Assembly: GCF_900111025.1 (NCBI RefSeq)
Contig: NZ_FOFN01000002.1
Span: 62,001 to 126,000 of the forward strand
Reading direction: 5' to 3'
Length of the DNA stretch: 64,000 nt
Source: Hyunsoonleella jejuensis
GTDB taxonomy: Bacteria > Bacteroidota > Bacteroidia > Flavobacteriales > Flavobacteriaceae
Positions 2,059 through 50,329 of this stretch are shown here, one piece after another. Every line of letters begins with the position of its first letter. The first letter of the stretch is position 1. The position numbers and the translations under genes were made by a program. The notes below the pieces were generated by a model. That model had not been told where the DNA came from. It saw nothing but the letters and a program-made list of their open reading frames with translations, and made no database searches.

Positions 2059-2101
2059 TAAATATATTTACTTATATAAGTTTCTACAATGATATATATC
2101 A
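2059..2101 (-). promoter_or_regulatory. Island promoter of hsp20 (CRP/FNR-type operator plus -7 box)
   Basis: The perfect palindrome TGATATATATCA (2090-2101) is followed in the direction of transcription by 23 bp and then TATATTTA (2066-2059), a Bacteroidota-type -7 element. The predicted start is near 2054, which puts the operator centre at about -41.5. It has the same layout as 12 other promoters in the island. Confidence 0.78.
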
Positions 2102-5250: not shown

Positions 5251-6105
5251 TTAATTTTTTAAATCGTGCATTACCAATAGTGGTATTTTAGTATTATAGC
5301 CAATTACTTTTACTAATGGATGCGATAATATGCTACCAAAAAACAGATGCTTTTTATTGATAAAAGCCACCATATCGCTTTCTCTACTTTCTACAAAACA
5401 ATTAATCGCAGTAGGTATATCCATTTGACTTAGGGTATGGAAGGTATGGTTTGTATTTTTTAAATACTCTTCAAGCAGTTTTTTGTGGTTTTGTTGTTTT
5501 TGACTAAGTGCTGTAGTTTTTGAAACATGCAATACTTTAATTGACGCATCACACTTTTTTGCTAAATCGATTAGATGATTTAATTCTCTTCTTTTAAATG
5601 GCGTTTTATAGCCGGTGGGGAAAACAATTTCCTTTGGTAGTTCAAGTTTAGCTGTTTCTGGTACTACAATTACGGGGCAATGCCTTATTTTTTCCATAAC
5701 CTCTATTGCTACTGTACCAAATATTTTATTTCTGGAGGCTGTTTTGCCTTTTGTACCCATAACCACCATTTCTATGTCTTTTGCTTCAACTATGGTTTTT
5801 ATACCCTCAACAATACTGTTAAACGTAGAAATCGTTGTGAAATGGTGTTTTGGGTTTTTATAATCTCTTAAAGCAATCATATCTAAAACTTTAGCCAACC
5901 CATTTTCAGAATCTAATTTTACGGTTTCATACATTTCGCTACCAGGTTGCATGTTCATTAACGATTCCATAATATTAGATGTAGCGCTAAAGACATTAAG
6001 GATATAAAATTCGCACTGTTCTTTTTTATATAATTCTAAGGCATAGGTAATGGCATGCCACGCGTTCTTGGAAAAATCTGTCGGGAATAGTATTTTACGT
6101 TTCAT
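5251..6105 (-). CDS. Universal stress protein, tandem UspA domains
   Basis: A protein of 284 residues with two UspA folds (about 1-150 and 155-284). The first begins with the usual KRKILFPTDFS strand and contains the ATP-binding signature G-x2-G-x9-G-T (GTKGK...FGT) ahead of PVIVVP. The second domain lacks that signature. Family members bind ATP or act as stress scaffolds in the cytoplasm. It is the fourth USP of the operon from 8715. A 60-nt gap separates it from the USP before it, the longest gap in this operon, and I see no island-type operator there. Confidence 0.92.
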   Translation of the reverse strand: MKRKILFPTDFSKNAWHAITYALELYKKEQCEFYILNVFSATSNIMESLMNMQPGSEMYETVKLDSENGLAKVLDMIALRDYKNPKHHFTTISTFNSIVEGIKTIVEAKDIEMVVMGTKGKTASRNKIFGTVAIEVMEKIRHCPVIVVPETAKLELPKEIVFPTGYKTPFKRRELNHLIDLAKKCDASIKVLHVSKTTALSQKQQNHKKLLEEYLKNTNHTFHTLSQMDIPTAINCFVESRESDMVAFINKKHLFFGSILSHPLVKVIGYNTKIPLLVMHDLKN

Positions 6106-6165
6106 GATATTTTGCTAATTCTCTAATTTAACTTACAACTAATAGCGTAATAATTTCCCTTAAAC

Positions 6166-6996
6166 CTATTCTGGTATTACCACAAAAGGCACAATAGGCC
6201 TAAAACCTATTTTTTTAATAATGGGTTCGCGTATTATTTTTTCAATAAAACTACGCTCATAATTTACCATAGCGAGCATGTCTATTTCTAATTCTTCAAT
6301 AAAATCATTTATCTCTTTAGATTTTTTAGCATACTTTGGCATCCAATGCAAACTGTGCTCATAATCTATTAAATGCTCTTGTAATACTTCTAAATTATAC
6401 TCTTGTACATCGTTAAGCTCTTCCTCTTCATTGATGTGTACAATTCTTATTTTAGAGTTGTATAAATCTGCAAATTCTTTCAAGGGCTGTATGTCGTTAT
6501 CGTTATAAAATCTATTAAAATCTGTGGGAAACGCTATTTGCTTCGGCACTACAAAATTGTAATCTTCAGGAACTATTAATATCGGGCAATCTTTTATGTC
6601 GTTTACAATACGCACCGTATTGCTGCCAAAGAAAATCTCTTTAGCACCGGTAGCGCCTTTTGTACCCATAATAATCAAATCAATATTGCATTTTTTAATA
6701 GCAGTTTTTATAGCCTTGTTTAACTCTTCGCCACTTAGTATTATTTCAAAATCATGATTTGCATTGGCATTATTGTTTTCTACAATATCTTTCATTTCCT
6801 CTAACTCCTTTAGAGCATTGGCTTTCATTGTTTTTAACAATTTATTTGAAAGATTAGACATTGCAGATGCCTTTAATGTTGTAGCATTTAAAAGATAAAA
6901 TGAACACTCCTCATCTTTAAAAAGTTTCAATCCGTAACCTATGGAACCCCATGAGTTAGCTGAAAAATCGGTAGGAATTAAAATATGACGTTTCAT
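6166..6996 (-). CDS. Universal stress protein, tandem UspA domains
   Basis: A protein of 276 residues with two UspA-like halves. The first half starts KRHILIPTDFS and keeps the ATP-binding signature G-x2-G-x9-G-S (GTKGA...FGS) around residues 110-125, followed by PILIVP. The second half has an IAFPTDFN strand but no nucleotide loop. It is the third USP of the operon. Its start is 3 nt after the stop of the preceding USP, which suggests tight coupling. It is more diverged and more acidic than its neighbours. Confidence 0.92.
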   Translation of the reverse strand: MKRHILIPTDFSANSWGSIGYGLKLFKDEECSFYLLNATTLKASAMSNLSNKLLKTMKANALKELEEMKDIVENNNANANHDFEIILSGEELNKAIKTAIKKCNIDLIIMGTKGATGAKEIFFGSNTVRIVNDIKDCPILIVPEDYNFVVPKQIAFPTDFNRFYNDNDIQPLKEFADLYNSKIRIVHINEEEELNDVQEYNLEVLQEHLIDYEHSLHWMPKYAKKSKEINDFIEELEIDMLAMVNYERSFIEKIIREPIIKKIGFRPIVPFVVIPE

Positions 6997-6999
6997 TAT

Positions 7000-7851
7000 T
7001 TAAGTTTTAGCCGTTATAGATGGAATAACTAAGAATGGGATATCTAAATGAAATCCTATTTGATTGATTCTTGATTTAAAAAACAGATTTTCAAAAAATG
7101 AATGTTTATTATTTATCATAATCAACAAGTTAATTTTAGCTTTAAGCTGAAAATTTGTGATGGCTGTTGAGACATTCTGATTACGCACGCTATGAAATAT
7201 ATGTGCCGTTTTCTCAAAGCTTTTTTCCAAAATTTGTTTGTGGGCTTTTTGAGCTTCAGACAAATCATAACCATACGAAACATTCAATATATTTATTCTG
7301 GTATTGTAAAGAGAAATCACATCAAAAATAGGTTTTAAGTGATGCTCTTGGTAATGGATCTCATAGTCTGTAGGAAACAAAACCTCATGTGGTTTTTCAA
7401 AACTAAAACCATCTGGAATTGCTATTATGGGGCACTTTACATTTTTAAAAATATGTACAGTGTTTGACCCGAATAAAATCTCTTTCGCGCCAGTAGCGCC
7501 TTTTGTTCCCATTATTATAAAATCAATAACTTTCTCTTGAACAATATCCTTTATTTCAGAAACAAGAGTATTAAAAGCTGCAATGGTTTCTATAGTGTGT
7601 TTTGGGTTATTAAATTCTTTTTGGATGTTAGTTTTAAAATCGTCAAGTTGTTTAAGAGAATTCTCTTTAACGGCATCATATATTCCGAATTGTGCCGGCT
7701 CTACCAACACATATTCTACATGATAAATTGCTGGCGTGTATGTGTTTAAAAGGTAAAACGTACATGTTTCATTCTTAAAAAGTTGTAGCGCATACGTTAT
7801 GGCACACCAAGAATTATCGGAAAAATCGGTAGGAAGAAGTATTTTTTTCAT
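7000..7851 (-). CDS. Universal stress protein, tandem UspA domains
   Basis: A protein of 283 residues, two UspA folds. Domain 1 (KKILLPTDFS ... GTKGA ... FGS ... PIIAIP) has the full G-x2-G-x9-G-S nucleotide signature, while domain 2 (VLFPTDYE) does not. It is the second gene of the operon, 15 nt after the first USP, and is followed after 3 nt by the next one. Domain-1 similarity to the copy at 6166-6996 (both GTKGATGAKEI) suggests these two are the most recent duplicates of the group. Confidence 0.93.
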   Translation of the reverse strand: MKKILLPTDFSDNSWCAITYALQLFKNETCTFYLLNTYTPAIYHVEYVLVEPAQFGIYDAVKENSLKQLDDFKTNIQKEFNNPKHTIETIAAFNTLVSEIKDIVQEKVIDFIIMGTKGATGAKEILFGSNTVHIFKNVKCPIIAIPDGFSFEKPHEVLFPTDYEIHYQEHHLKPIFDVISLYNTRINILNVSYGYDLSEAQKAHKQILEKSFEKTAHIFHSVRNQNVSTAITNFQLKAKINLLIMINNKHSFFENLFFKSRINQIGFHLDIPFLVIPSITAKT

Positions 7852-7866
7852 GGTGTTAAATTTTAT

Positions 7867-8715
7867 CTATTTGCGTTTCAAATTCTGTAAGGATAAAAAT
7901 GGAATATCCAGGTTTAAACTCAACTCATCCAGAGGAGATTGAAAAAGGATATTTTCTAAAAAAGAATGTGTTGTGTTTACCATTACAAGCATATCTATAT
8001 CTTTTTCCTTGATGTACTTATATATTGAATTAATAATGTGATTACTGCTTTCTATTTTAAAATTCACATTGGTTTTATAGAGCTCTGCCTTAATAAAATC
8101 CATATTTTCTTGCTGTCTACGAGACAGTGTGCTACTTTTTGAAATATAAAGCATGTCTATCGTAGATCTGTAAGAAGAGGCCATTTCGCAAAGTAGCTTT
8201 AGTTCTCGTCTTTTATAAGGTATCATGTAGTTGGTTGGAAAAAGAATATGCTTGGGTTGTGTATATTTATAATTTTGGGGTATAGACAATACAGGACATT
8301 GCACATATTTTAAAACCTGTAATGTGTTACTGCCAAAGGTGATGTTTTTGTCGTTGGTTTTTCCTCTGGTGCCCATAACTATGACGTCGATATTATGTTT
8401 ATCCACAATTTTATCTGCTTCATCTAAAAGCAAATTATTGGCAGAAATAATATTAAATGTGTGTTTGGGGTTGGATTTGTCGCTCTCAATGGACGATTTA
8501 ATCTTTTTAAGTTCACTAAGTGATGTTTTGTGAACTGCATTAGTAACTTCATCTAATGTTTCCCTATTTAGTATAACCTCATCAGAATAAATCTCATTTT
8601 GGAAAGCATGCATGATGTAAAATTCGCTTACCTCGTATTTAAATAACTCAGTAGCGTATTGTATAGCGTTCATAGCATTTTTAGAGAAATCGGTAGGAAT
8701 CAATATTTTTCTCAT
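7867..8715 (-). CDS. Universal stress protein, first gene of the long stress operon
   Basis: A protein of about 282 residues with two UspA folds. Domain 1 carries GTRGK...FGS (G-x2-G-x9-G-S), while domain 2 (ILFPTNYM) lacks it. Two in-frame ATGs exist, at 8721 and 8715. I prefer 8715 (MRKILIPTDFS), because it puts the first residue directly before the conserved strand and leaves a 13-nt leader from the predicted transcription start near 8729. It heads an eight-gene operon: four USPs, the eRF1-like protein, ATP-cone nuclease, beta-CASP hydrolase and a helical protein. Confidence 0.92.
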   Translation of the reverse strand: MRKILIPTDFSKNAMNAIQYATELFKYEVSEFYIMHAFQNEIYSDEVILNRETLDEVTNAVHKTSLSELKKIKSSIESDKSNPKHTFNIISANNLLLDEADKIVDKHNIDVIVMGTRGKTNDKNITFGSNTLQVLKYVQCPVLSIPQNYKYTQPKHILFPTNYMIPYKRRELKLLCEMASSYRSTIDMLYISKSSTLSRRQQENMDFIKAELYKTNVNFKIESSNHIINSIYKYIKEKDIDMLVMVNTTHSFLENILFQSPLDELSLNLDIPFLSLQNLKRK

Positions 8716-8733
8716 GGCCATAGGTATTATCTC

Positions 8734-8776
8734 TAAATTTAAACATCTGAGCAGACCGATACAATGATATATATCA
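8734..8776 (-). promoter_or_regulatory. Island promoter of the eight-gene USP operon
   Basis: TGATATATATCA (8765-8776), the same 12-mer as at hsp20 and also followed by TTGT, then 23 bp and TAAATTTA (8741-8734). The predicted start near 8729 leaves a very short leader before ATG 8715. Confidence 0.78.
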
Positions 8777-8833
8777 GAATTAGGGATTAAGAATAGGAAT
8801 TTACTAGTGCTGAATTATATGGTATGTTTAAAA

Positions 8834-8867
8834 AAAAAAGGAATGCCTTGTTTAGCATTCCTTTTTT
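8834..8867 (-). terminator. Intrinsic terminator of the candidate ncRNA
   Basis: GGAATGC/GCATTCC stem extended by six A-U pairs with an 8-nt loop. On the minus strand it is followed by an uninterrupted run of ten T (8839-8830). On the plus strand the T-run is only six. It lies upstream of the 8765-8776 operator, so it insulates the USP operon from the transcript before it. Confidence 0.8.
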
Positions 8868-8916
8868 CTCTCATTACTTAATTATGTAAATTGATTAATA
8901 GCCAAAATTAAATAGA

Positions 8917-8944
8917 GAAACAGGAAGTTTACACTTCCTGTTTC
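8917..8944 (-). repeat. 28-bp perfect hairpin, copy 2
   Basis: Arms GAAACAGGAAGT and ACTTCCTGTTTC (12 bp, no mismatch) around a 4-nt loop that reads GTAA on the minus strand. Identical over all 28 bp to 9094-9121, 177 bp away, while the flanks differ. Confidence 0.9.
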
Positions 8945-9093
8945 CCTTCATGGAAATACTTGATTTTATTAATTAACCTTCTCTAATCATTAATATCCCT
9001 TATGAAAGCCATATTAAATTTTCAGTTAACTAATAGCTTCAAATACTTGCAGTACAGCACCATACATTTGTAATGTAAAACACTGTGTTTTTA

Positions 9094-9121
9094 GAAACAG
9101 GAAGTTTACACTTCCTGTTTC
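9094..9121 (-). repeat. 28-bp perfect hairpin, copy 1
   Basis: Same 28 bp as 8917-8944: a 12-bp perfect stem and a GTAA loop on the minus strand. It lies about 170 nt after the predicted start of the candidate ncRNA. Confidence 0.9.
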
Positions 9122-9297
9122 ATTTAGGAGTTTAATTTTATTACCTGATCATCAGTATAATTATTAAGCTATTGTCAAAACAATTAAAAACCAAAGCTAA
9201 CCAGTTGCCAAAAGATTAATAAAACTGATTAAACAGGTGATGTACTAAACTCAAAGATTTTAAACTGCTAATATGCAAAGAACGTAGTAATATGATG

Positions 9298-9340
9298 CTA
9301 ATTTATATCACCAAAACGAATGGGTAAATGATATTCATCA
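9298..9340 (-). promoter_or_regulatory. Island promoter with no protein gene downstream
   Basis: On the minus strand: TGATGAATATCA (9340-9329), 23 bp, then TAAATTAG (9305-9298), the same -7 box as the promoter at 10610-10652. The predicted start is near 9293. It lies just after the stop of the membrane protein gene (9350) and drives the candidate ncRNA. Confidence 0.7.
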
Positions 9341-9349
9341 GTTTTGATG

Positions 9350-9736
9350 TTAAATTGGTACAATGCCATAAACTATATTAAGCAAAAACAAACCAGTAAG
9401 AAAAAGTAAGGTATATATAAGTTGTACCAATTTTACATTAACAAATTTTAGTAAAGCAACCGTACGCTTTGGAAAAATGAAAAGTGAAAGGCCAATGAAT
9501 AAAGATATCCATCCAATAAATGTGATAAAAATTCTCCAATTAGATTCCCATATATTATGAAATAAAATATTTAGCAAACCAACAATTATTGCTAAAAACG
9601 AAGCTAATATTAAAAATTTCTCATCATGTAAGTCGTTAAAAATTTGTTTAATGCGTTTTGGATTGAAACTTAGTATAACAAAGAATATAATAAGATACCA
9701 ACCCCAAAATTTTGCTAGAAATATTGAACTATCCAT
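9350..9736 (-). CDS. Small integral membrane protein, four predicted TM helices
   Basis: A protein of 128 residues with four hydrophobic stretches (about 8-25, 42-60, 68-87 and 100-125) separated by short charged loops. No conserved catalytic motif is recognised. The start is 7 nt after the stop of a universal stress protein gene, so the two are co-transcribed from the promoter at 10610-10652. A membrane partner for that USP is a reasonable guess but is not shown by the sequence. Confidence 0.75.
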   Translation of the reverse strand: MDSSIFLAKFWGWYLIIFFVILSFNPKRIKQIFNDLHDEKFLILASFLAIIVGLLNILFHNIWESNWRIFITFIGWISLFIGLSLFIFPKRTVALLKFVNVKLVQLIYTLLFLTGLFLLNIVYGIVPI

Positions 9737-9742
9737 AATGCA

Positions 9743-10588
9743 TTAATTTTTTTCGTGTAATACTAAAAAAGGAATTTCGATATGATAACTTATTTCTTCA
9801 ACTTTTGAATGAAATAAAATTTGTTGAAAATAATTTAGGTTTTTAGCAACCATACATATCATATTAATGTTTCTACTTTCTACAAAACATTGTATAGCAT
9901 CTTCTACTTTTTTATTTGTTAAATAATGAAAGCTATGTGTTAAATGATCAAAATAATTATCTAAAAGTTCCCTGTTTTTAGTTTGATCGTAGTTTAGCTG
10001 TGCATTCTTTTTTTTAATATGAAGAATTCTTAAAGCAGAATTATTGGTTTCTATAATTTCAGAAAGAGGCCTTAATATTTGTGTTTCATAAGCTAATAAA
10101 AAATCGGTTGGAAATGCAATTTCCTTAAGTTTTGTAAACTTAGCACTTTCGGGTACTGCTAAAGTAGTGCACTTAACTTTGGTAATAACGTCTCCCGTAT
10201 TGCTCCCCATTATTTTTTTTAAACCAGAGGCGCCTTTTGTGCCCATAACAACACAATCTATATTTTTATCTTCTACATGTTTTCTAATAGATTCTATAAA
10301 AAACCCAAAGGCAGAAATGGTGTAGAACTTATGTTGTTTGTTCTGTGAAAACCGTTGAGCGATGCGTTTCAACAATTTACGCAGCTGTAATTTTGCAGGT
10401 TTTGTATAAACAACTTCTATGGTTTCCTCTGGTGCAATGTATGGAGATTCGTTAATCATTACGTCATCAAATCTATTTACATGCATTAGGTAAAAATTGC
10501 AGTTTTCGTTTGCGAAAAAGTCAATAGCATACGTAATGGCATTCCAGGAATTTTCTGAAAAGTCGGTGGGTAGTAATATATTTTTCAT
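9743..10588 (-). CDS. Universal stress protein, tandem UspA domains
   Basis: A protein of 281 residues with two UspA folds. Domain 1 starts MKNILLPTDFS. Its nucleotide loop reads GTKGASGLKKIMGS, one residue shorter between the second and third Gly than the canonical G-x2-G-x9-G-S, so ATP binding may be altered. Domain 2 (IAFPTDFL) has no loop. It forms a two-gene operon with the membrane protein at 9350, separate from the long USP operon, with its own island-type promoter and a leader of about 17 nt. Confidence 0.92.
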   Translation of the reverse strand: MKNILLPTDFSENSWNAITYAIDFFANENCNFYLMHVNRFDDVMINESPYIAPEETIEVVYTKPAKLQLRKLLKRIAQRFSQNKQHKFYTISAFGFFIESIRKHVEDKNIDCVVMGTKGASGLKKIMGSNTGDVITKVKCTTLAVPESAKFTKLKEIAFPTDFLLAYETQILRPLSEIIETNNSALRILHIKKKNAQLNYDQTKNRELLDNYFDHLTHSFHYLTNKKVEDAIQCFVESRNINMICMVAKNLNYFQQILFHSKVEEISYHIEIPFLVLHEKN

Positions 10589-10609: not shown

Positions 10610-10652
10610 CTAATTTACAGTGTTGTTACCGCTGGTAAAATGATATTGGTCA
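10610..10652 (-). promoter_or_regulatory. Island promoter of the USP/membrane protein operon
   Basis: On the minus strand: TGACCAATATCA (10652-10641), 23 bp, TAAATTAG (10617-10610). Predicted start near 10605. The TTTT after the operator fits the island consensus ATCATT(T/G). Confidence 0.72.
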
Positions 10653-10676: not shown

Positions 10677-11729
10677 CTAAGTTACCTGTTTTAGTTTTTC
10701 AATATCAATTACCTTAATGTTTCTACCGTCTGCTTTTATAATTCCCTGTTTTTTAAATTCGGTTAGTGCCCTAATTAGGGTTTCTGTTGCAATACCCGCT
10801 ACGCTGGCCAAATCGTTCCTAGAAATTTTTATGGGATCATCTGGTTTACGGTTCATCTTTTCAGCAAACTTTAAAATGGTGGCAGCGGTTTTTTGAGATA
10901 CAGTGCCATAAGCCATTTGTAAAAGCTGTGTCTTAACATTCGATATATCGTCGGTTAGCAGTTCTATAAGTTCTATAACCAATTTGTGGTTTTTATTTAG
11001 AATACTTTTAAAGTCTATAATTGATAACCCTATTAGTTTAGTATCTGCAATAGCTGCGGCAGTTTCCTTGTAAGTGGTGTTTTGGGTAAACGATGTATAA
11101 CCAAATAAATCATCTTCTTTGTAAAGTGCCGTAACCAATTCTTTACCTTTTTCATCTCTTCTAAAACATTTTACAGCGCCTTTGCTAATTAGGTAAATAT
11201 AGTTCGAATGGTCGCCTTCATTATAAATAACCGCTTCATTTTTAAATACAGATGCTTCACCATAATCATCAAAAAAAATCTTTAAATCGTTTAGTGTTTT
11301 TAGCTCATCATCTGGTTTGGGAGTTTCAATATTATCATTTTGTTTTATATCTTTAAGTATAGATACTTTGGCTAAACGACTTTCTATGGCTGTTACCAAG
11401 TCTTCTTCGGTAAAGGGTTTAGTTATATAATCGTCTGCACCTAAATTCATCCCTTTTCTAACATCACTACGTTCTGTTTTAGCAGATAAAAATATAAAAG
11501 GTATGTGCTTTGTTAATTTGTTTTTAGAAAGGATTTTAAGCGCAGCATAACCATCAAGTTCTGGCATCATAATATCGCATATTATAATATCCGGATATTG
11601 CTTTTTAGCAAGTGATACACCTATTTTTCCGTTAGAAGCTGTTAAAACTTTATAGCCAGATAGTTCTAAAAGTTCTGCAGTATTTTCTCTTAAAACAGTA
11701 TCATCTTCTATAAGTAAAACAGTTGTCAT
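10677..11729 (-). CDS. Response regulator fused to a CRP/FNR-type transcription factor
   Basis: A protein of 350 residues in three parts. The receiver domain (about 1-120) has acidic residues E8-D9-D10, phospho-acceptor D52 and K104 in TKPF. The cNMP-binding-like fold (about 150-265) comes next, then a Crp-type winged HTH (about 270-345). The recognition helix reads GIATETLIRALTEF and keeps the Glu and Arg that contact the TGA half-site in CRP and FNR. The four Fe-S cysteines of FNR are absent, so direct oxygen sensing is unlikely. Its start overlaps the kinase stop by 4 nt. It is the obvious candidate to bind the TGA-N6-TCA operators of this island, including the one before its own operon. 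Confidence 0.93.
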   Translation of the reverse strand: MTTVLLIEDDTVLRENTAELLELSGYKVLTASNGKIGVSLAKKQYPDIIICDIMMPELDGYAALKILSKNKLTKHIPFIFLSAKTERSDVRKGMNLGADDYITKPFTEEDLVTAIESRLAKVSILKDIKQNDNIETPKPDDELKTLNDLKIFFDDYGEASVFKNEAVIYNEGDHSNYIYLISKGAVKCFRRDEKGKELVTALYKEDDLFGYTSFTQNTTYKETAAAIADTKLIGLSIIDFKSILNKNHKLVIELIELLTDDISNVKTQLLQMAYGTVSQKTAATILKFAEKMNRKPDDPIKISRNDLASVAGIATETLIRALTEFKKQGIIKADGRNIKVIDIEKLKQVT

Positions 11730-13606
11730 TTTTCTATCGTGTTTGGAAATTTAATACTAAAGGTAGTTCCCTTATGTTCTTCACTTTCAAAGCAAATAGT
11801 TCCACCCAAATTCTCTAAATGATTTTTGGCAATATTCAAGCCAATACCTGTGCCTTGCGTATTGATAACATTTTTTGCTCTAAAATACCGTTCAAAAATA
11901 CTGTTTTGGTCTTTTTGGGGTATGCCTATACCTTCATCCTTAACTTTTATTGTTGTAAAGCTAGTATCTTGATCTATTTTTAAATAAATAGCGGTGTTTT
12001 CGGGTGAATATTTAATGGCGTTATGTAATAAATTTGATAAAATTAATTGAAGGATTTTTTCATCTTGATAAAGTGATATGTCATCAATATTTTCAGGGTA
12101 TTTTATCTGTTGGCCTTCTTTTAAAAGCATATTGGCGTTGTAAACTACCTCATTAATTACTTTACTTAGTTTAAAATGAGTGAATTTGTAGGTTACTTTT
12201 CCAGTTTCTATTTTTTCAACCGAAAGGAAATCGTTTAATATATTATTTAAAAAATGAACCTTTTCGGATATGGTTTTTAAGTGTTTGTCTCGTTTTTCTT
12301 GGTGTTCGGTTAATTGGTATTTACCTAATAATTGCGTAGACGTTAAGATACCGCTTAAAGGCGTTTTAAACTCGTGCGATACTAAGGATAAAAAATTTGT
12401 CTTTAAATCGCTGAGCTCTTTTTCTTTGCTCAGTGCTATTTTAAGCTGTTGGGTTCTTTCTTCAACTTTATTTTCGAGTTTGGTGGTATAGTTTTTTCGT
12501 TCGGTAATATCTAGTATTATAGCAACAAACACCTCTTTTTCACCTAAATTTGAAAGCTGCAAATGTACTTCCACCGGATATGTTGTGCCATCCTTACGCT
12601 GGTGTACGGTTTCAAACTCTAATTTTTCATCTACCTTGCTTAATAGAACACCAATGGTTTTTTTAAATTCAGCTTTATTATCATTAGGCACAATATCCAA
12701 TGGTGTCATTTTCCTTAGCTCTTCGAAACTGTAACCAAGGTTTTTTTGTGCGCCATGGTTTACGTTAATAAATTTTAATGTTGCTACATCATAAACATAT
12801 ATTTCGTTTAACGATTCATTAAAAATAGTGGCAAGATGGTGGCGTTCTTCCTCTGAGTTTTTTCGTAATGTCACATCATTTTGAATGCCAATAAAATTTG
12901 TAACAATTCCATTTGTATCCATTATAGGAAACACATACAAATCGTTCCAAAACATGGTACCATCCTTTTTGTAATTTCGTAGGGTAGCTTGACAACTCTC
13001 CCCATTTTTTATAGCTTCCCTTAATCTTTTTAAATCTGCTTGGTTTCTATCCTTACCCTGTAAAAACCTACAGTTATGGTTTAAAATTTCAGTATCAGAA
13101 TATCCAGTAAGTTTTTGAAATGCTGAATTGAAATAAATAATGGGATTATCCCTTTTTAAGGCATCTGTAATAATAACACCGTTTTTAGCCGATTGTAATG
13201 CCTGGGTTCTAAGCATTAATTTTTTCTCAATGGTTTTCTTTTCTGAAACATCCCTAACCAATACCAATACATAAATTTTGTTATAAATGGTAAATGGGTT
13301 CAGTTCAACTTCAACGAGAAAAATACTACCATCTTTTTTTAGGCCGTAAATATCATTTGCTACTCCTAATTTTCGTCGCTTTCCTTTTTTTATAAATTTT
13401 TTGAAATATACCGATAGGTTTTCGTGATAACTAGAAGGCATTAATACATTTAAATTCTTATTGACTAACTCATCTTTCGGATACGCAAAAATAGTTTCAG
13501 CCGATTTATTCACCTCCATGATTATTTGCTGACAATCCAATATAATCACGCCCTCCGAAACGGTTTCTAATAGAATATTAAATATTTCTTGGTCTTGCGG
13601 AAACAT
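11726..13606 (-). CDS. Soluble LOV-domain hybrid PAS histidine kinase
   Basis: A protein of 626 residues without TM segments. Order: PAS (about 10-123), LOV-type PAS (about 135-247), PAS (about 255-370), HisKA with H411 in SHEFKTPL, and HATPase with N525/N529, DEGIGIP and GTGIGL. The second PAS has NCRFLQ with Cys179 at the photo-adduct position, plus the flavin-contact residues N211 (NYKKDG), N221 (FWN) and Q242 (GIQND), all as in bacterial LOV photosensors such as YtvA. The first PAS resembles FixL, but the residue aligned with the FixL heme-binding His appears to be Leu, so heme sensing is not supported. It is paired with the REC-CRP regulator downstream. Confidence 0.93.
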   Translation of the reverse strand: MFPQDQEIFNILLETVSEGVIILDCQQIIMEVNKSAETIFAYPKDELVNKNLNVLMPSSYHENLSVYFKKFIKKGKRRKLGVANDIYGLKKDGSIFLVEVELNPFTIYNKIYVLVLVRDVSEKKTIEKKLMLRTQALQSAKNGVIITDALKRDNPIIYFNSAFQKLTGYSDTEILNHNCRFLQGKDRNQADLKRLREAIKNGESCQATLRNYKKDGTMFWNDLYVFPIMDTNGIVTNFIGIQNDVTLRKNSEEERHHLATIFNESLNEIYVYDVATLKFINVNHGAQKNLGYSFEELRKMTPLDIVPNDNKAEFKKTIGVLLSKVDEKLEFETVHQRKDGTTYPVEVHLQLSNLGEKEVFVAIILDITERKNYTTKLENKVEERTQQLKIALSKEKELSDLKTNFLSLVSHEFKTPLSGILTSTQLLGKYQLTEHQEKRDKHLKTISEKVHFLNNILNDFLSVEKIETGKVTYKFTHFKLSKVINEVVYNANMLLKEGQQIKYPENIDDISLYQDEKILQLILSNLLHNAIKYSPENTAIYLKIDQDTSFTTIKVKDEGIGIPQKDQNSIFERYFRAKNVINTQGTGIGLNIAKNHLENLGGTICFESEEHKGTTFSIKFPNTIEK

Positions 13607-13632: not shown

Positions 13633-13676
13633 TAAAAATACAAAAAAATGGGGTTATAGTTTACTGATTTTTATCA
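13633..13676 (-). promoter_or_regulatory. Divergent arm of a shared operator, toward the kinase/regulator operon
   Basis: The palindromic operator 13665-13676 also faces the kinase gene. The minus-strand -7 box TATTTTTA (13640-13633) follows after 24 bp instead of 23. The predicted start near 13628 lies 22 nt before ATG 13606. This suggests autoregulation, with slightly different activation geometry. Confidence 0.55.
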
Positions 13677-13707: not shown

Positions 13708-13724
13708 AAGGTAAATTTGTGAAA

Positions 13725-14132
13725 ATGAAAACTGTAGCAGATGAAATGGCAAAATTCTATCAAAATTTGGGTAAGCTGTTTTATGCCGTTGCTGCAACTG
13801 ATAAAACCGTAGAGGTTACCGAATTCAATACGCTAAAAGACCTGGTAAGGCAGCAGTGGCTGAATACCAATCTGGTTACAGAAAGTACACATACCGATGC
13901 TGTATATCAAATTCTAAATGTTTTTGAATGGTTATATAAGAATGAACGACTGAATGCTGAGATGTATTTTGATGATTTTGTAAAGTATAAAAATGACCAT
14001 AAACACTTATTTACCAACGACATAAAAAAGCTTATTATGCAAACTGCGCACAAAATAGCCTATGCATTCTCTAGAGTGAATAAGTCAGAGCTCATTATGC
14101 TAGCGAAATTAGATATGGAATTAAAAAAATAA
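13725..14132 (+). CDS. TerB-like helical protein
   Basis: A protein of about 135 residues from ATG 13725; a GTG at 13719 is also in frame, but the ATG fits the predicted transcription start better. It is all-helical, with a pattern (KLFYAVAATDKTVEVTEF near the N-terminus, then FEWL, and AFSRVNKSELIMLAKL at the end) resembling the TerB/tellurite-resistance fold, whose paired acidic residues can bind metal. The match is from pattern only. It is the first gene of an operon with thioredoxin (6 nt gap) and a purine nucleoside phosphorylase. Confidence 0.7.
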   Translation: MKTVADEMAKFYQNLGKLFYAVAATDKTVEVTEFNTLKDLVRQQWLNTNLVTESTHTDAVYQILNVFEWLYKNERLNAEMYFDDFVKYKNDHKHLFTNDIKKLIMQTAHKIAYAFSRVNKSELIMLAKLDMELKK

Positions 14133-18348: not shown

Positions 18349-18391
18349 TGACATTTATCATTTTTAATTCATGTGATATAAATTAATTTTA
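18349..18391 (+). promoter_or_regulatory. Island promoter of the cbpA operon
   Basis: TGACATTTATCA (18349-18360), 23 bp, TAATTTTA (18384-18391). Predicted start near 18396, leader about 31 nt. Confidence 0.75.
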
Positions 18392-18426: not shown

Positions 18427-19320
18427 ATGTCATTTATAGATTACTATAAAATATTAGGCATTCCAAAAACTGCATCTGAGGCAGATATTAAAAAGGCCTA
18501 CAGGAAATTGGCTCGTAAATACCATCCTGATTTAAATCCTAATGATAAAGTAGCCGAAAAAAAATTCAAAGAAATAAATGAGGCCAATGAAGTACTAAGC
18601 AACGCTGAAAACCGTAAAAAATATGACCAATATGGAGAGCACTGGCAACATGCAGAGGAATATGAAAAAGCAAAAAAACAACAGCAACACTATCAAACAA
18701 GTTATAATGACGCTTCTGGAGGATATTCAGAACAGGATTTTTCAGATTTTTTCGAGAACATGTTTGGCAGTAGTGCCTACTCAGGATCAAGAGGAAGACA
18801 AGTAAAATTTAGGGGTGAGGATTATAATGCAGAATTACAACTAGATTTATTAGACGTTTACACTACACATAAACGTACCCTAACGGTAAACAATAAAAAT
18901 ATAAGAATTACCATTCCAGCAGGGGTAGAGAACGGACAAGTTATTAAAATTAAGGGTCATGGAGGTAAAGGTGTTAATGGTGGGCCAAATGGTGATTTAT
19001 ATATCCAGTTTTCAATAGTAAACCATTCAAAATTTAAAAGAGATAAAGATAACTTACACCTTACTGTAGATTTAGATTTGTACAAAGCTTTACTTGGCGG
19101 GGAGCTAACAATAAACACTTTTGATGGTAAGGTGAAGCTTAATGTAAAGCCAGAAACCCAAAATGGTACTAGAGTAAAACTTAAGGGCAAAGGATTCCCT
19201 AGATACAAAAAAGATGGACAGTTTGGAGATTTGTATATTACGTATGAAATAAAACTCCCTACCAAACTTTCAACAAAGGAAAAAGCGCTTATTAAAGAAT
19301 TACAAAAACTGCGAGACTAA
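18427..19320 (+). CDS. cbpA: DnaJ-class co-chaperone CbpA
   Basis: A protein of 297 residues. An N-terminal J domain (1-68, HPD in YHPDLNPND) is followed by a Gln/Tyr-rich linker and the two C-terminal substrate-binding domains. The zinc-finger Cys repeats of DnaJ are absent, so it is the CbpA type. It stimulates the DnaK ATPase and delivers substrates during stress. Its stop TAA and the ATG of the next gene share one base (19320), as in cbpA-cbpM pairs elsewhere. Confidence 0.93.
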
Positions 19321-24839: not shown

Positions 24840-24882
24840 TGATAAATATCATTTAAAAAAAAAAAGTGTCGTATTACATTTG
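24840..24882 (+). promoter_or_regulatory. Island promoter of the USP gene at 24903
   Basis: TGATAAATATCA (24840-24851), 23 bp, TACATTTG (24875-24882), the only one of the set with the exact Bacteroidota TAnnTTTG. Predicted start near 24887, leader about 16 nt. Confidence 0.8.
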
Positions 24883-24902: not shown

Positions 24903-25802
24903 ATGAAAACAATTCTCTACGCTACAGACTGTACTAATAACGATGCCTCATCATTAAAATATGCTTATAGATTCAGTTGTATAATGAATGCCAATTTACA
25001 CGTTCTGCATGTATATAATCTTCCTCCAATTTTATTTTCAACAATAAAACCTTCAGAATTATTAAAACGAAGAATGCGCGAAGAACGTGTAGAGCTTTTA
25101 GAAAAATATTGCAAAAAACACCTTAAAAATGAGTTTCATAAAGAACCAATTACTACTCATGCTGTTGAGAATGACTCTGTCTCTGAAACTATTTTGCGCC
25201 TTTCAAAACACATTGCGCCAGATTTGGTTATTATAGGAATGAAAGATAGGCATAGTATGAGAGGTTATTTTTCTGGTAATATTGCAAATACACTTCTAGA
25301 TGTAATAGAGTTGCCTCTGTTAATAGTACCAAATAGTTTAGTTTATGATACCATATCTACGATTATATATGCTACAGATTTTGAAGAGGATGACATTTTA
25401 TATTTAAAAAAAATCATTGAAATTGCCAAACCTTTTTCTGCCCTAGTAGAAGTTATTCATGTCTACGAATCTGATGAATATCCTGCCAAAAAATATATGC
25501 AACAGTTTAAGCATGCACTGCAGCAAGAAGTATCTTATCCAGAAATTGTTTTTAAAACTATAGCTTCAACCAGTGTAAAATCTGGAATATTAAGTGTTTT
25601 AAATAATGAGGATGCCGATATGTTGGTTATGCTAGAGCGTAAACACGAGTGGAGTTTTTCTAACATATTTCAGAAGGATTTAGTAAAGGATATAGAAATC
25701 TCGTTAAAAATTCCATTGCTGGCATTTAGTAAGCAGCGTAAGAAACTACAAAATGCCAATGCCAAGTGTAAGAACGAAAATGGCATATTAAGCTTTGGTT
25801 AA
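24903..25802 (+). CDS. Universal stress protein, diverged tandem UspA domains
   Basis: A protein of 299 residues with two UspA folds. Domain 1 starts MKTILYATDCT and domain 2 IIYATDFE. The nucleotide loop of domain 1 reads GMKDRHSMRGYFSGN, losing the second Gly and the final Ser/Thr position, so ATP binding is doubtful. It is more distant from the five other USPs of the window than they are from each other. It is a monocistronic unit with an island promoter, convergent with the mlaD gene. Confidence 0.9.
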   Translation: MKTILYATDCTNNDASSLKYAYRFSCIMNANLHVLHVYNLPPILFSTIKPSELLKRRMREERVELLEKYCKKHLKNEFHKEPITTHAVENDSVSETILRLSKHIAPDLVIIGMKDRHSMRGYFSGNIANTLLDVIELPLLIVPNSLVYDTISTIIYATDFEEDDILYLKKIIEIAKPFSALVEVIHVYESDEYPAKKYMQQFKHALQQEVSYPEIVFKTIASTSVKSGILSVLNNEDADMLVMLERKHEWSFSNIFQKDLVKDIEISLKIPLLAFSKQRKKLQNANAKCKNENGILSFG

Positions 25803-48952: not shown

Positions 48953-50329
48953 CTATATATGAATCACCTCATCATAGGCTGCAGCTACAGCTTCCATAAC
49001 AGCTTCACTCATTGTTGGATGAGGATGAATCGCCTTTAAAACCTCATGCCCCGTAGTTTCCAATTTTCTACCTAAAACAGCTTCGGCTATCATATCTGTA
49101 ACACCGGCACCAATCATGTGGCACCCTAACCATTCCCCATATTTAGCATCAAAAATCACCTTTACGAATCCTTCTTTATTTCCGCCGGCACTAGCTTTAC
49201 CAGAGGCAGAGAAGGGGAATTTCCCAACCTTAATATCCAAGCCTTTTTCTTTGGCTTGTTTTTCCGTTAAACCTACACTAGCAATTTCTGGTGAACAATA
49301 GGTGCATCCTGGAATATTGCCGTAATCAATTGGTTCAACATGATGACCAGCAAGTTTTTCAACACATAAAATACCTTCTGCTGATGCCACGTGCGCTAAA
49401 GCTTGTCCTGGTGTAACATCACCAATTGCATAGTATCCTGGAATATTGGTTTGATAAAAATCATTTACCAAGATTTTATCCCTATCTACAACGATACCAA
49501 CATCTTCTAATCCAATATTTTCAATGTTAGTTTTTATACCAACGGCAGATAAAATAATGTCCGCTTCTAAAACTTCTTCACCTTTGCTAGTCTTTACTGT
49601 AGCTTTAACTCCTTTTCCTGACGTATCAACAGATGTTACTTCGGCAGATGTCTTAATTAAAATACCGTTTTTCTTGAAAGAACGTTCTAGCTGTTTCGAT
49701 ACCTCTTCGTCTTCAACAGGAACTATATTTGGTAAATATTCAACAATGGTGACTTCCGTACCCATTGAGTTATAGAAATATGCGAATTCAACGCCAATAG
49801 CTCCAGAACCAACAACAATCATTTTCTTTGGTTGTTTTTCTAAAGTCATGGCTTGTCTATATCCTATTACCTTTTCGCCATCTTGTGGTAAGCTAGGTAA
49901 CTCACGAGACCTTGCTCCAGTAGCAATAATAATATGGTCTGCACTATATTCAGTGCCATCAACATCAACTTTTTTACCAGGTTTTAGTTTGCCATAACCT
50001 TCAATAATATCTATCTTGTTCTTCTTCATTAAAAATTGAACACCTTTACTCATACCATCAGCAACACCGCGGCTTCGTTTTACAACAGCATCAAAATCAT
50101 GTTCCGCATCCTTAACTTTTAAACCGTAATCTTCTGCATGTTTAAGATATTCAAATACTTGGGCAGATTTTAATAAGGCTTTTGTTGGGATACAACCCCA
50201 ATTTAAACAAACCCCACCAAGGTTTTCTTTTTCAATAATAGCGGTTTTAAAACCCAATTGCGATGCTCTAATTGCTGTAACATATCCACCAGGACCACTT
50301 CCAAGAACTATAATATCGTATTTACTCAT
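48953..50329 (-). CDS. lpdA: Dihydrolipoyl dehydrogenase
   Basis: A protein of 458 residues. FAD-binding GSGPGGY (about 10-16), redox pair C41/C46 in GGVCLNWGCIP, NAD domain GSGAIGVEF, and active-site His in HPHPTMSEA near the C-terminus. E3 component of 2-oxoacid dehydrogenases and the glycine cleavage system. E1/E2 genes are not adjacent. Confidence 0.95.
   Translation of the reverse strand: MSKYDIIVLGSGPGGYVTAIRASQLGFKTAIIEKENLGGVCLNWGCIPTKALLKSAQVFEYLKHAEDYGLKVKDAEHDFDAVVKRSRGVADGMSKGVQFLMKKNKIDIIEGYGKLKPGKKVDVDGTEYSADHIIIATGARSRELPSLPQDGEKVIGYRQAMTLEKQPKKMIVVGSGAIGVEFAYFYNSMGTEVTIVEYLPNIVPVEDEEVSKQLERSFKKNGILIKTSAEVTSVDTSGKGVKATVKTSKGEEVLEADIILSAVGIKTNIENIGLEDVGIVVDRDKILVNDFYQTNIPGYYAIGDVTPGQALAHVASAEGILCVEKLAGHHVEPIDYGNIPGCTYCSPEIASVGLTEKQAKEKGLDIKVGKFPFSASGKASAGGNKEGFVKVIFDAKYGEWLGCHMIGAGVTDMIAEAVLGRKLETTGHEVLKAIHPHPTMSEAVMEAVAAAYDEVIHI

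Follow-up and report, generated by a model that had tools for sequence, protein, structure and literature searches.

In the FixL/FixJ/FixK system of rhizobia, a heme-PAS kinase that is inhibited by oxygen (FixL) works with the regulators FixJ and FixK; FixK-type sites are FNR-like and the system is linked to cbb3 oxidase genes. DosP from E. coli also carries a heme PAS domain but is not a kinase, being a cyclic-di-GMP phosphodiesterase. Blue light is the input of the engineered kinase YF1, in which the LOV domain of YtvA drives the kinase of FixL, and of the Brucella LOV-HK, which belongs to another kinase type. In the DosR dormancy regulon of mycobacteria, heme-sensor kinases with GAF sensors control universal stress protein (USP) and Hsp20-type genes through a NarL-type regulator. 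LOV kinases, heme PAS kinases and CRP-type regulators as such are thus already known. Here we analyze a kinase/regulator gene pair from the flavobacterium Hyunsoonleella jejuensis, located in a window of 64,000 nucleotides (contig NZ_FOFN01000002.1, positions 62,001 to 126,000). As judged from sequence comparisons, the special feature of this pair appears to be a sensor exchange: LOV domains occur in a kinase family that is FixL-like in other respects, and in the window protein the heme-ligand residues of the sensor common to that family are gone.

Both genes are located on the minus strand and overlap by 4 nucleotides, at the positions given in an earlier, sequence-only reading of the window. 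The first one (11726..13606) encodes a sensor histidine kinase of 626 amino acids (aa) comprising PAS1 (aa 5-122, 13241..13594, minus strand), a LOV domain (aa 134-250, 12857..13207, minus strand), PAS3 (aa 258-378, 12473..12835, minus strand) and a HisKA-HATPase kinase core (aa 395-624, 11735..12424, minus strand) with His411 as the phospho-acceptor. Pfam recognized PAS stretches, HisKA and HATPase_c. Since PAS1 begins at residue 5, a soluble protein is plausible. The best sequence match in the PDB is YF1 (entry 4gcz). A predicted model shows three PAS domains joined by helices leading into the DHp domain (predicted local distance difference test, pLDDT, 79; predicted template modeling score, pTM, 0.38, so that the overall arrangement is of low confidence). 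Its best structural matches by E-value include 4gcz and the Brucella LOV-PAS-HK structure 6ph4. As in YF1, a LOV domain is combined with a FixL-type kinase. The window kinase is natural, however, with its LOV domain placed after PAS1, a further PAS domain separating LOV from the kinase core, and a receiver-CRP fusion (REC-CRP) as its partner. With the Brucella enzyme and other bacterial LOV kinases it shares the LOV-PAS-kinase order; it differs from the Brucella enzyme in its HisKA/HATPase_c core, in the FixL-like PAS1 in front and in the overlapping gene for a CRP-type partner.

This partner (10677..11729, minus strand, 350 aa) consists of Response_reg, cNMP_binding and HTH_Crp_2 according to Pfam, with Asp52 as the predicted phospho-acceptor and the CRP-type helix-turn-helix (HTH) at residues 279-348. 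The cNMP-binding fold together with the Crp-type HTH confirms the earlier assignment to the CRP/FNR type, and Asp52 as well as His411 are in place for a phosphotransfer that would connect the two proteins. A LuxR/NarL-type HTH as in FixJ is absent, cNMP_binding and HTH_Crp_2 being found instead. The protein also lacks the Fe-S cysteine cluster of the FNR subgroup, having just two cysteines (Cys51 and Cys188). It is the only full-length REC-CRP copy in its genome. In contrast to the rhizobial system, a single REC-CRP stands in place of FixJ and FixK.

The second PAS domain was identified as a LOV domain in the sequence-only reading, and this holds. A phmmer search with residues 131-267 returned PDB matches including chains of YtvA (1e-30), phototropin (5e-29) and PpSB1 (2e-28), and the adduct-forming Cys179 (in the motif NCRFLQ) and the flavin contacts Asn211, Asn221 and Gln242 are all present. 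The YtvA-family and blue-light histidine kinase models of NCBIfam match the kinase as well, both below their full-length cut-offs. Among 43 LOV relatives Cys179 is conserved in 41, Asn211 in 42, Asn221 in 43 and Gln242 in 33. The domain would be expected to bind flavin. LOV flavins can also respond to the redox state, and the setting of the pair is a stress and respiration regulon, so the domain might serve as a flavin redox sensor rather than as a light sensor. We regard this as quite improbable: the two relatives that lack the cysteine would agree with it, whereas redox sensing alone would not require this residue, which is retained in the other 41 across 14 pure-LOV groups on the kinase tree. 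The sequences give good support to a light-sensing LOV kinase that acts, within a stress island, on a regulator of the CRP type. A rhodopsin search of the same genome gave no match, but as the controls were silent too, this result carries no weight.

The photoactive cysteine is replaced in the LOV domains of L051 and L080 (by Ile and Leu, respectively), and the glutamine is missing in 10 out of 43. These proteins represent natural cases for LOV signaling without Cys or without Gln.

The spread of the pair was analyzed in 299 Flavobacteriaceae genomes, 138 of which contain a REC-CRP match at E 1e-40 or better. From 80 named loci and 148 survey places among the matches listed, 216 non-redundant REC-CRP loci were obtained. 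For 12 of them no kinase was found upstream (several are at contig ends), leaving 204 kinases. Their architectures are PAS1-HK (126), PAS1-LOV-PAS3-HK (40), PAS1-PAS3-HK (34) and, once each, PAS1-LOV-HK, LOV-PAS3-HK, LOV-HK and HK. A genome search for LOV kinases next to REC-CRP fusions, which the sequence-only reading had proposed as a check, thus finds 43 such pairs. The remaining 161 kinases directly upstream of a REC-CRP are without LOV, and PAS1 was detected by hidden Markov model in 201 out of 204. At least one USP gene is near 42 of 43 LOV pairs and 149 of 161 non-LOV pairs (191 of 204 overall). The window pair itself has the features of the family: its REC-CRP gene immediately follows that of a PAS1 kinase, and USP genes are close by. 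Pairing and stress neighbors are therefore independent of the light sensor. The idea of a light-driven CRP-like regulator in a stress island stands by sequence, whereas the pairing and its target set, which had been taken for the new part, are no light-specific novelty, as the same pair, the USP neighbors and the operator described below are common without LOV. A light-specific operon is ruled out on the same grounds. PAS1, which had been passed over, appears to be the sensor common to the family.

What PAS1 might sense is indicated by its closest relatives. With the window PAS1 as the query, FixL/DosP heme oxygen sensors took the top 13 places among 22 PDB sequences (top hit FixL, 1.4e-11), which assigns the domain to this group by homology. 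With a profile built from 30 PAS1 domains of non-LOV kinases, heme PAS domains (DosP, FixL, FG214) filled the first 14 places among PDB sequences, with 13 DosP/FixL entries at 2e-23 to 4e-17, followed by 10jx (4e-16), an entry titled as a heme-binding PAS, and with the first LOV domain at 7e-10. DosP, although not a kinase, thus contains the heme PAS scoring highest against the family profile. A histidine is invariant in the alignment of these PAS1 domains (30 out of 30). In the model of PAS1 from L152, a kinase of the same genus (pLDDT 86.7), this residue, His63, is located on a helix formed by residues 57-72. Foldseek ranked the FixL heme PAS first for this model and LOV domains close behind, so the fold alone is not decisive.

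The proximal heme histidine (on helix Fα) is retained in 155 of 160 non-LOV kinases and in 34 of 41 LOV kinases, the distal arginine in 125 of 160 and 8 of 41, and both residues together in 123 of 160 and 8 of 41, respectively. The difference between LOV and non-LOV kinases has a Fisher p of 2e-11 for both residues and of 0.003 for His, values that are not corrected for kinship. The non-LOV relatives would bind heme. The window kinase has Leu64 at the position of the proximal His and Asn84 at that of the distal Arg, with a His61 three residues before Leu64. Because neither ligand residue is present, its PAS1 probably binds no heme. Within the LOV clade of the window kinase (24 rows of the tree, 23 with PAS1), 2 of 23 kinases retain Arg and 6 have lost His. 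Both residues are kept in 11 of 14 non-LOV rows near this clade, a set that consists of 12 rows chosen by eye from the leaf order (11 with both residues) plus L182 and L184 (His/Met). Other strongly changed PAS1 columns of the clade are Gly83 and Leu86 beside the Arg position, and Gly101 on the next strand, which is Glu in 22 of 23.

One alternative is that LOV merely adds a light input, while PAS1 resembles a heme PAS and senses a non-oxygen signal or nothing, so that no exchange took place. According to a study on PAS domains (PMC10468136), His is found in 60% of the sequences of the FixL/DosP cluster and the rest may differ in specificity. PAS1 has also remained well conserved in the window clade, and 35 of the 160 non-LOV kinases are without Arg. 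The uniform heme-PAS ranking of the family profile, the near-universal His of the non-LOV kinases and the confinement of cbb3/FixI neighbors to the non-LOV group speak against this explanation, and we think it unlikely. Slightly less unlikely, in our opinion, is that most LOV kinases are dual sensors combining heme, for oxygen or another gas, with light, and that the window protein has a weakened heme input. The 34 LOV kinases with His, and in particular the eight with both residues (e.g. L060, L071 and L245), would suit such a dual sensor; Leu64 and Asn84 of the window protein and the rarity of Arg in its clade do not.

In the reading that we prefer, the pair is a variant of an oxygen-responsive, FixL-like two-component system of the Flavobacteriaceae in which blue light has replaced oxygen as the input. 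Several observations weigh against it. As His is missing in only 7 of 41 LOV kinases, the window protein included, most of them may still bind heme. The loss of Arg is shared by the 35 non-LOV kinases mentioned above, and L182 and L184, non-LOV rows near the window clade, are already without it. At equal kinase divergence, PAS1 identity in the window clade is higher than in non-LOV rows in two of three bins and lower in one, so the domain is retained for some purpose; in LOV rows outside this clade it is lower in both of two bins. In a tree of 203 rows (one bare HK row was excluded), a paired test for LOV and Arg loss pointed in the expected direction without being significant (0 vs. about 2.3 of 7 pairs), and the corresponding test for His loss yielded no association (0.2 vs. 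0.1). The association of LOV with Arg loss rests mainly on the one clade of 24. Finally, LOV changed at least 14 times on this tree, with 14 pure-LOV groups, and must therefore have been gained, lost or transferred repeatedly, gain and loss not being distinguishable. L182 and L184 and the absent paired association for His slightly lower our confidence in the light-input explanation, which we consider somewhat more probable than its negation. General decay of PAS1 in the window clade was also considered and is not supported by the identity bins, the changes being local.

The genomic surroundings differ between the two groups. A FixI-like ATPase or ccoN is a neighbor of 27 of 161 non-LOV loci, as with the rhizobial system, and of none of the 43 LOV loci (Fisher p 0.002, not corrected for kinship). 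This count includes hits of 40% identity or more and excludes hits of 25-27% in L119 (LOV) and L157 (non-LOV). The mean locus lengths are similar (13.8 kb for non-LOV and 14.3 kb for LOV loci). An island largely like that of the window occurs in G132, a genome from the same genus; its kinase, L152, is of the PAS1-only type and contains both His and Arg. At least five surveyed genomes (G061, G111, G121, G133 and G212) possess a LOV and a non-LOV copy together; a second match in G220 and a third one in G061 lie outside this comparison. The non-LOV copy retains His and Arg in all five. In the LOV copy both residues are lost in G121 and G133 and both are kept in G111; in G061 PAS1 is encoded separately, in an overlapping frame, and the copy of G212 is a distant protein of 917 aa. 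In G061 and G121 the non-LOV copy adjoins genes for a FixI-like ATPase and ccoN. In the genome of the window (L279:4020-7177), FixI-like ATPase and FNR genes are divergent with no kinase, REC-CRP or USP gene between them, whereas L161 has those three at this place. This suggests loss, or original absence, of an oxygen-type copy.

A split gene or a sequencing slip may be seen in L146:3125-5004, where PAS1 and LOV-PAS3-HK are encoded in two separate overlapping frames.

The modules are joined with a largely constant spacing. The distance from the Asp at the end of the last PAS domain to the phospho-acceptor His is 45, 52, 73 or 80 residues in nearly all measured kinases. It equals 3 modulo 7 in 114 of 117 PAS1-HK proteins (of 126), 32 of 33 PAS1-PAS3-HK proteins (of 34) and 38 of 39 PAS1-LOV-PAS3-HK proteins (of 40). 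With the PAS3 Asp taken as residue 45 before His, the LOV-to-PAS3 distance is 122 in 36 of 39 kinases. The same distance separates PAS1 from PAS3 in 32 of the 33 kinases with two PAS domains, and PAS1 and LOV are 125 residues apart in 39 out of 39. In the window kinase, Asp366 is located 45 residues before His411 and 122 residues after Asp244 of LOV. Thus, LOV fills the slot that PAS1 occupies in two-PAS kinases and the heptad register is kept. This would fit the heptad dependence reported for YF1, which the same source describes as a kinase in the dark and a phosphatase in the light (PMC6798134).

The output side is marked by a short dyad. TGAT-N4-ATCA, which we take to be FNR-like, was found in 351 of 817 upstream regions of island genes, compared to 3.3 expected from shuffles. 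The relaxed form TGAY-N4-RTCA precedes USP genes in 79 of 106 LOV and 271 of 307 non-LOV cases, Hsp20 genes in 9 of 9 and 13 of 15 cases, and the gene of a 137-aa protein in 29 of 30 and 72 of 73 cases (101 of 103, more often than in any other of the larger gene groups). The median distance from the dyad center to the gene start is 58 bp. The dyad is rare before genes for ATP-cone/Mrr (2 of 37), β-CASP (0 of 4) and REC-CRP (0 of 39) proteins, the last being expected because these genes lie inside operons.

The window contains 13 dyads compared to 3.5 expected, a number reached in none of 100 shuffles. Genes with a dyad in front include those for Hsp20 and the kinase, two of the clustered USP genes, a sixth USP gene and one of the DnaJ type; the dyad at 49452 is located within an open reading frame (ORF). 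The dyad TGATTTTTATCA (13665..13676, plus strand, as for all that follow) lies in the promoter region between two divergent genes, those for the kinase and for the 137-aa protein (13719-14132); the latter protein has no Pfam match. The center of TGATATTGGTCA (10641..10652) is 58 bp upstream of the USP gene at 9743-10588. TGATATATATCA is found twice, at 8765..8776 upstream of the USP gene at 7867-8721 and at 2090..2101 upstream of the Hsp20 gene (1501-2022). Further dyads are located at 18349..18360, upstream of the DnaJ-type gene (18427-19320), and at 24840..24851, with the center 57 bp upstream of the sixth USP gene (24903-25802).

From this distribution we infer that REC-CRP reads the dyad, which FNR may share. 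An alternative assignment, with the single-domain FNR as the owner of the dyads and different sites for REC-CRP, is suggested by the FNR-like dyad sequence, by the similar recognition helix of FNR (ATESAIR vs. ATETLIR) and by a dyad that precedes the FNR gene as well. The Hsp20 promoters argue in the other direction: the dyad was found before none of 11 Hsp20 genes in genomes that have FNR and lack a REC-CRP match (18 genomes searched, a top-of-list subset of the 161 survey genomes without such a match), whereas it precedes 22 of 24 near REC-CRP, although the Hsp20 genes compared may not be orthologous. Assignment of the dyads to FNR therefore seems to us a minor possibility, for which roughly one chance in four would be a fair description.

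Based on these comparisons we propose the following scheme. The common form would use a soluble kinase whose single FixL/DosP-type heme PAS reports low oxygen to REC-CRP. This regulator would bind TGAY-N4-RTCA about 58 bp before USP and Hsp20 genes; some of these loci adjoin genes of the cbb3 oxidase. In the window's lineage, LOV is found between PAS1 and PAS3 at a conserved spacing. As both heme-ligand residues of PAS1 are lost in the window kinase, blue light and not oxygen would set the phosphorylation of Asp52: light acting on LOV would change the coiled coil and, via PAS3 and DHp, the phosphorylation state of the regulator. Darkness would then be equivalent to low oxygen, with the regulon on in the dark and off in the light. 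We expect a dark-on regulon because YF1 is a kinase in the dark and FixL is inhibited by oxygen; by this analogy the sign of the light response is a guess.

Taken further, evolution would have made an exchange of the YF1 kind, from oxygen to blue light, in which operator and regulon were kept, the heme residues were lost in LOV lineages and the inputs were split between paralogues in some genomes, the oxygen copy beside cbb3 genes and the light copy in the stress island. We judge the arguments for and against this broader proposal to be evenly balanced. No description of the pairing, of heme-PAS kinases in Bacteroidetes or of a natural FixL/LOV exchange was found in the open-access literature, a search that left most subscription journals outside.

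The neighborhood of the pair in the window is a stress island with five USP genes, Hsp20, a β-CASP/MBL protein, an ATP-cone/Mrr protein and thioredoxin. The probable target cluster (5251..10588, minus strand) consists of the five USP genes (at 5251, 6166, 7000, 7867 and 9743) and the gene of a 128-aa membrane protein without a Pfam match (9350-9736). By analogy, the USP and Hsp20-type genes recall the DosR regulon, which would differ in its GAF sensors and NarL-type regulator.

The 128-aa protein is encoded near 26 of 43 LOV pairs compared to 16 of 161 non-LOV pairs, a skew that may be clade- or light-related. Between its gene and the USP gene at 7867-8721 lies a stretch without long ORFs (8722-9349), which contains a 27-bp palindrome twice, a third hairpin and, at its upstream end, the dyad TGATATTCATCA (9329..9340), just after the membrane protein gene. 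This placement recurs in relatives: a dyad follows the 128-aa gene within 60 nucleotides in 20 of the 22 loci with an intergenic region of 200-1300 nucleotides (28 loci examined). The stretch is a candidate for a small RNA under the control of the regulator, for which FnrS provides a parallel. A search of positions 8600-9800 against Rfam gave 9 weak matches, none of them above the gathering threshold.

The family offers a natural series within one type of kinase-regulator pair and with one operator: kinases with the heme residues only, with heme residues and LOV, and with LOV and the heme residues lost. A change of signal without loss of output in sensor kinases is therefore directly testable. 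REC-CRP and its dyad are parts that could be used for optogenetics. For these flavobacteria, light and oxygen may be interchangeable cues for a dormancy-like stress program.

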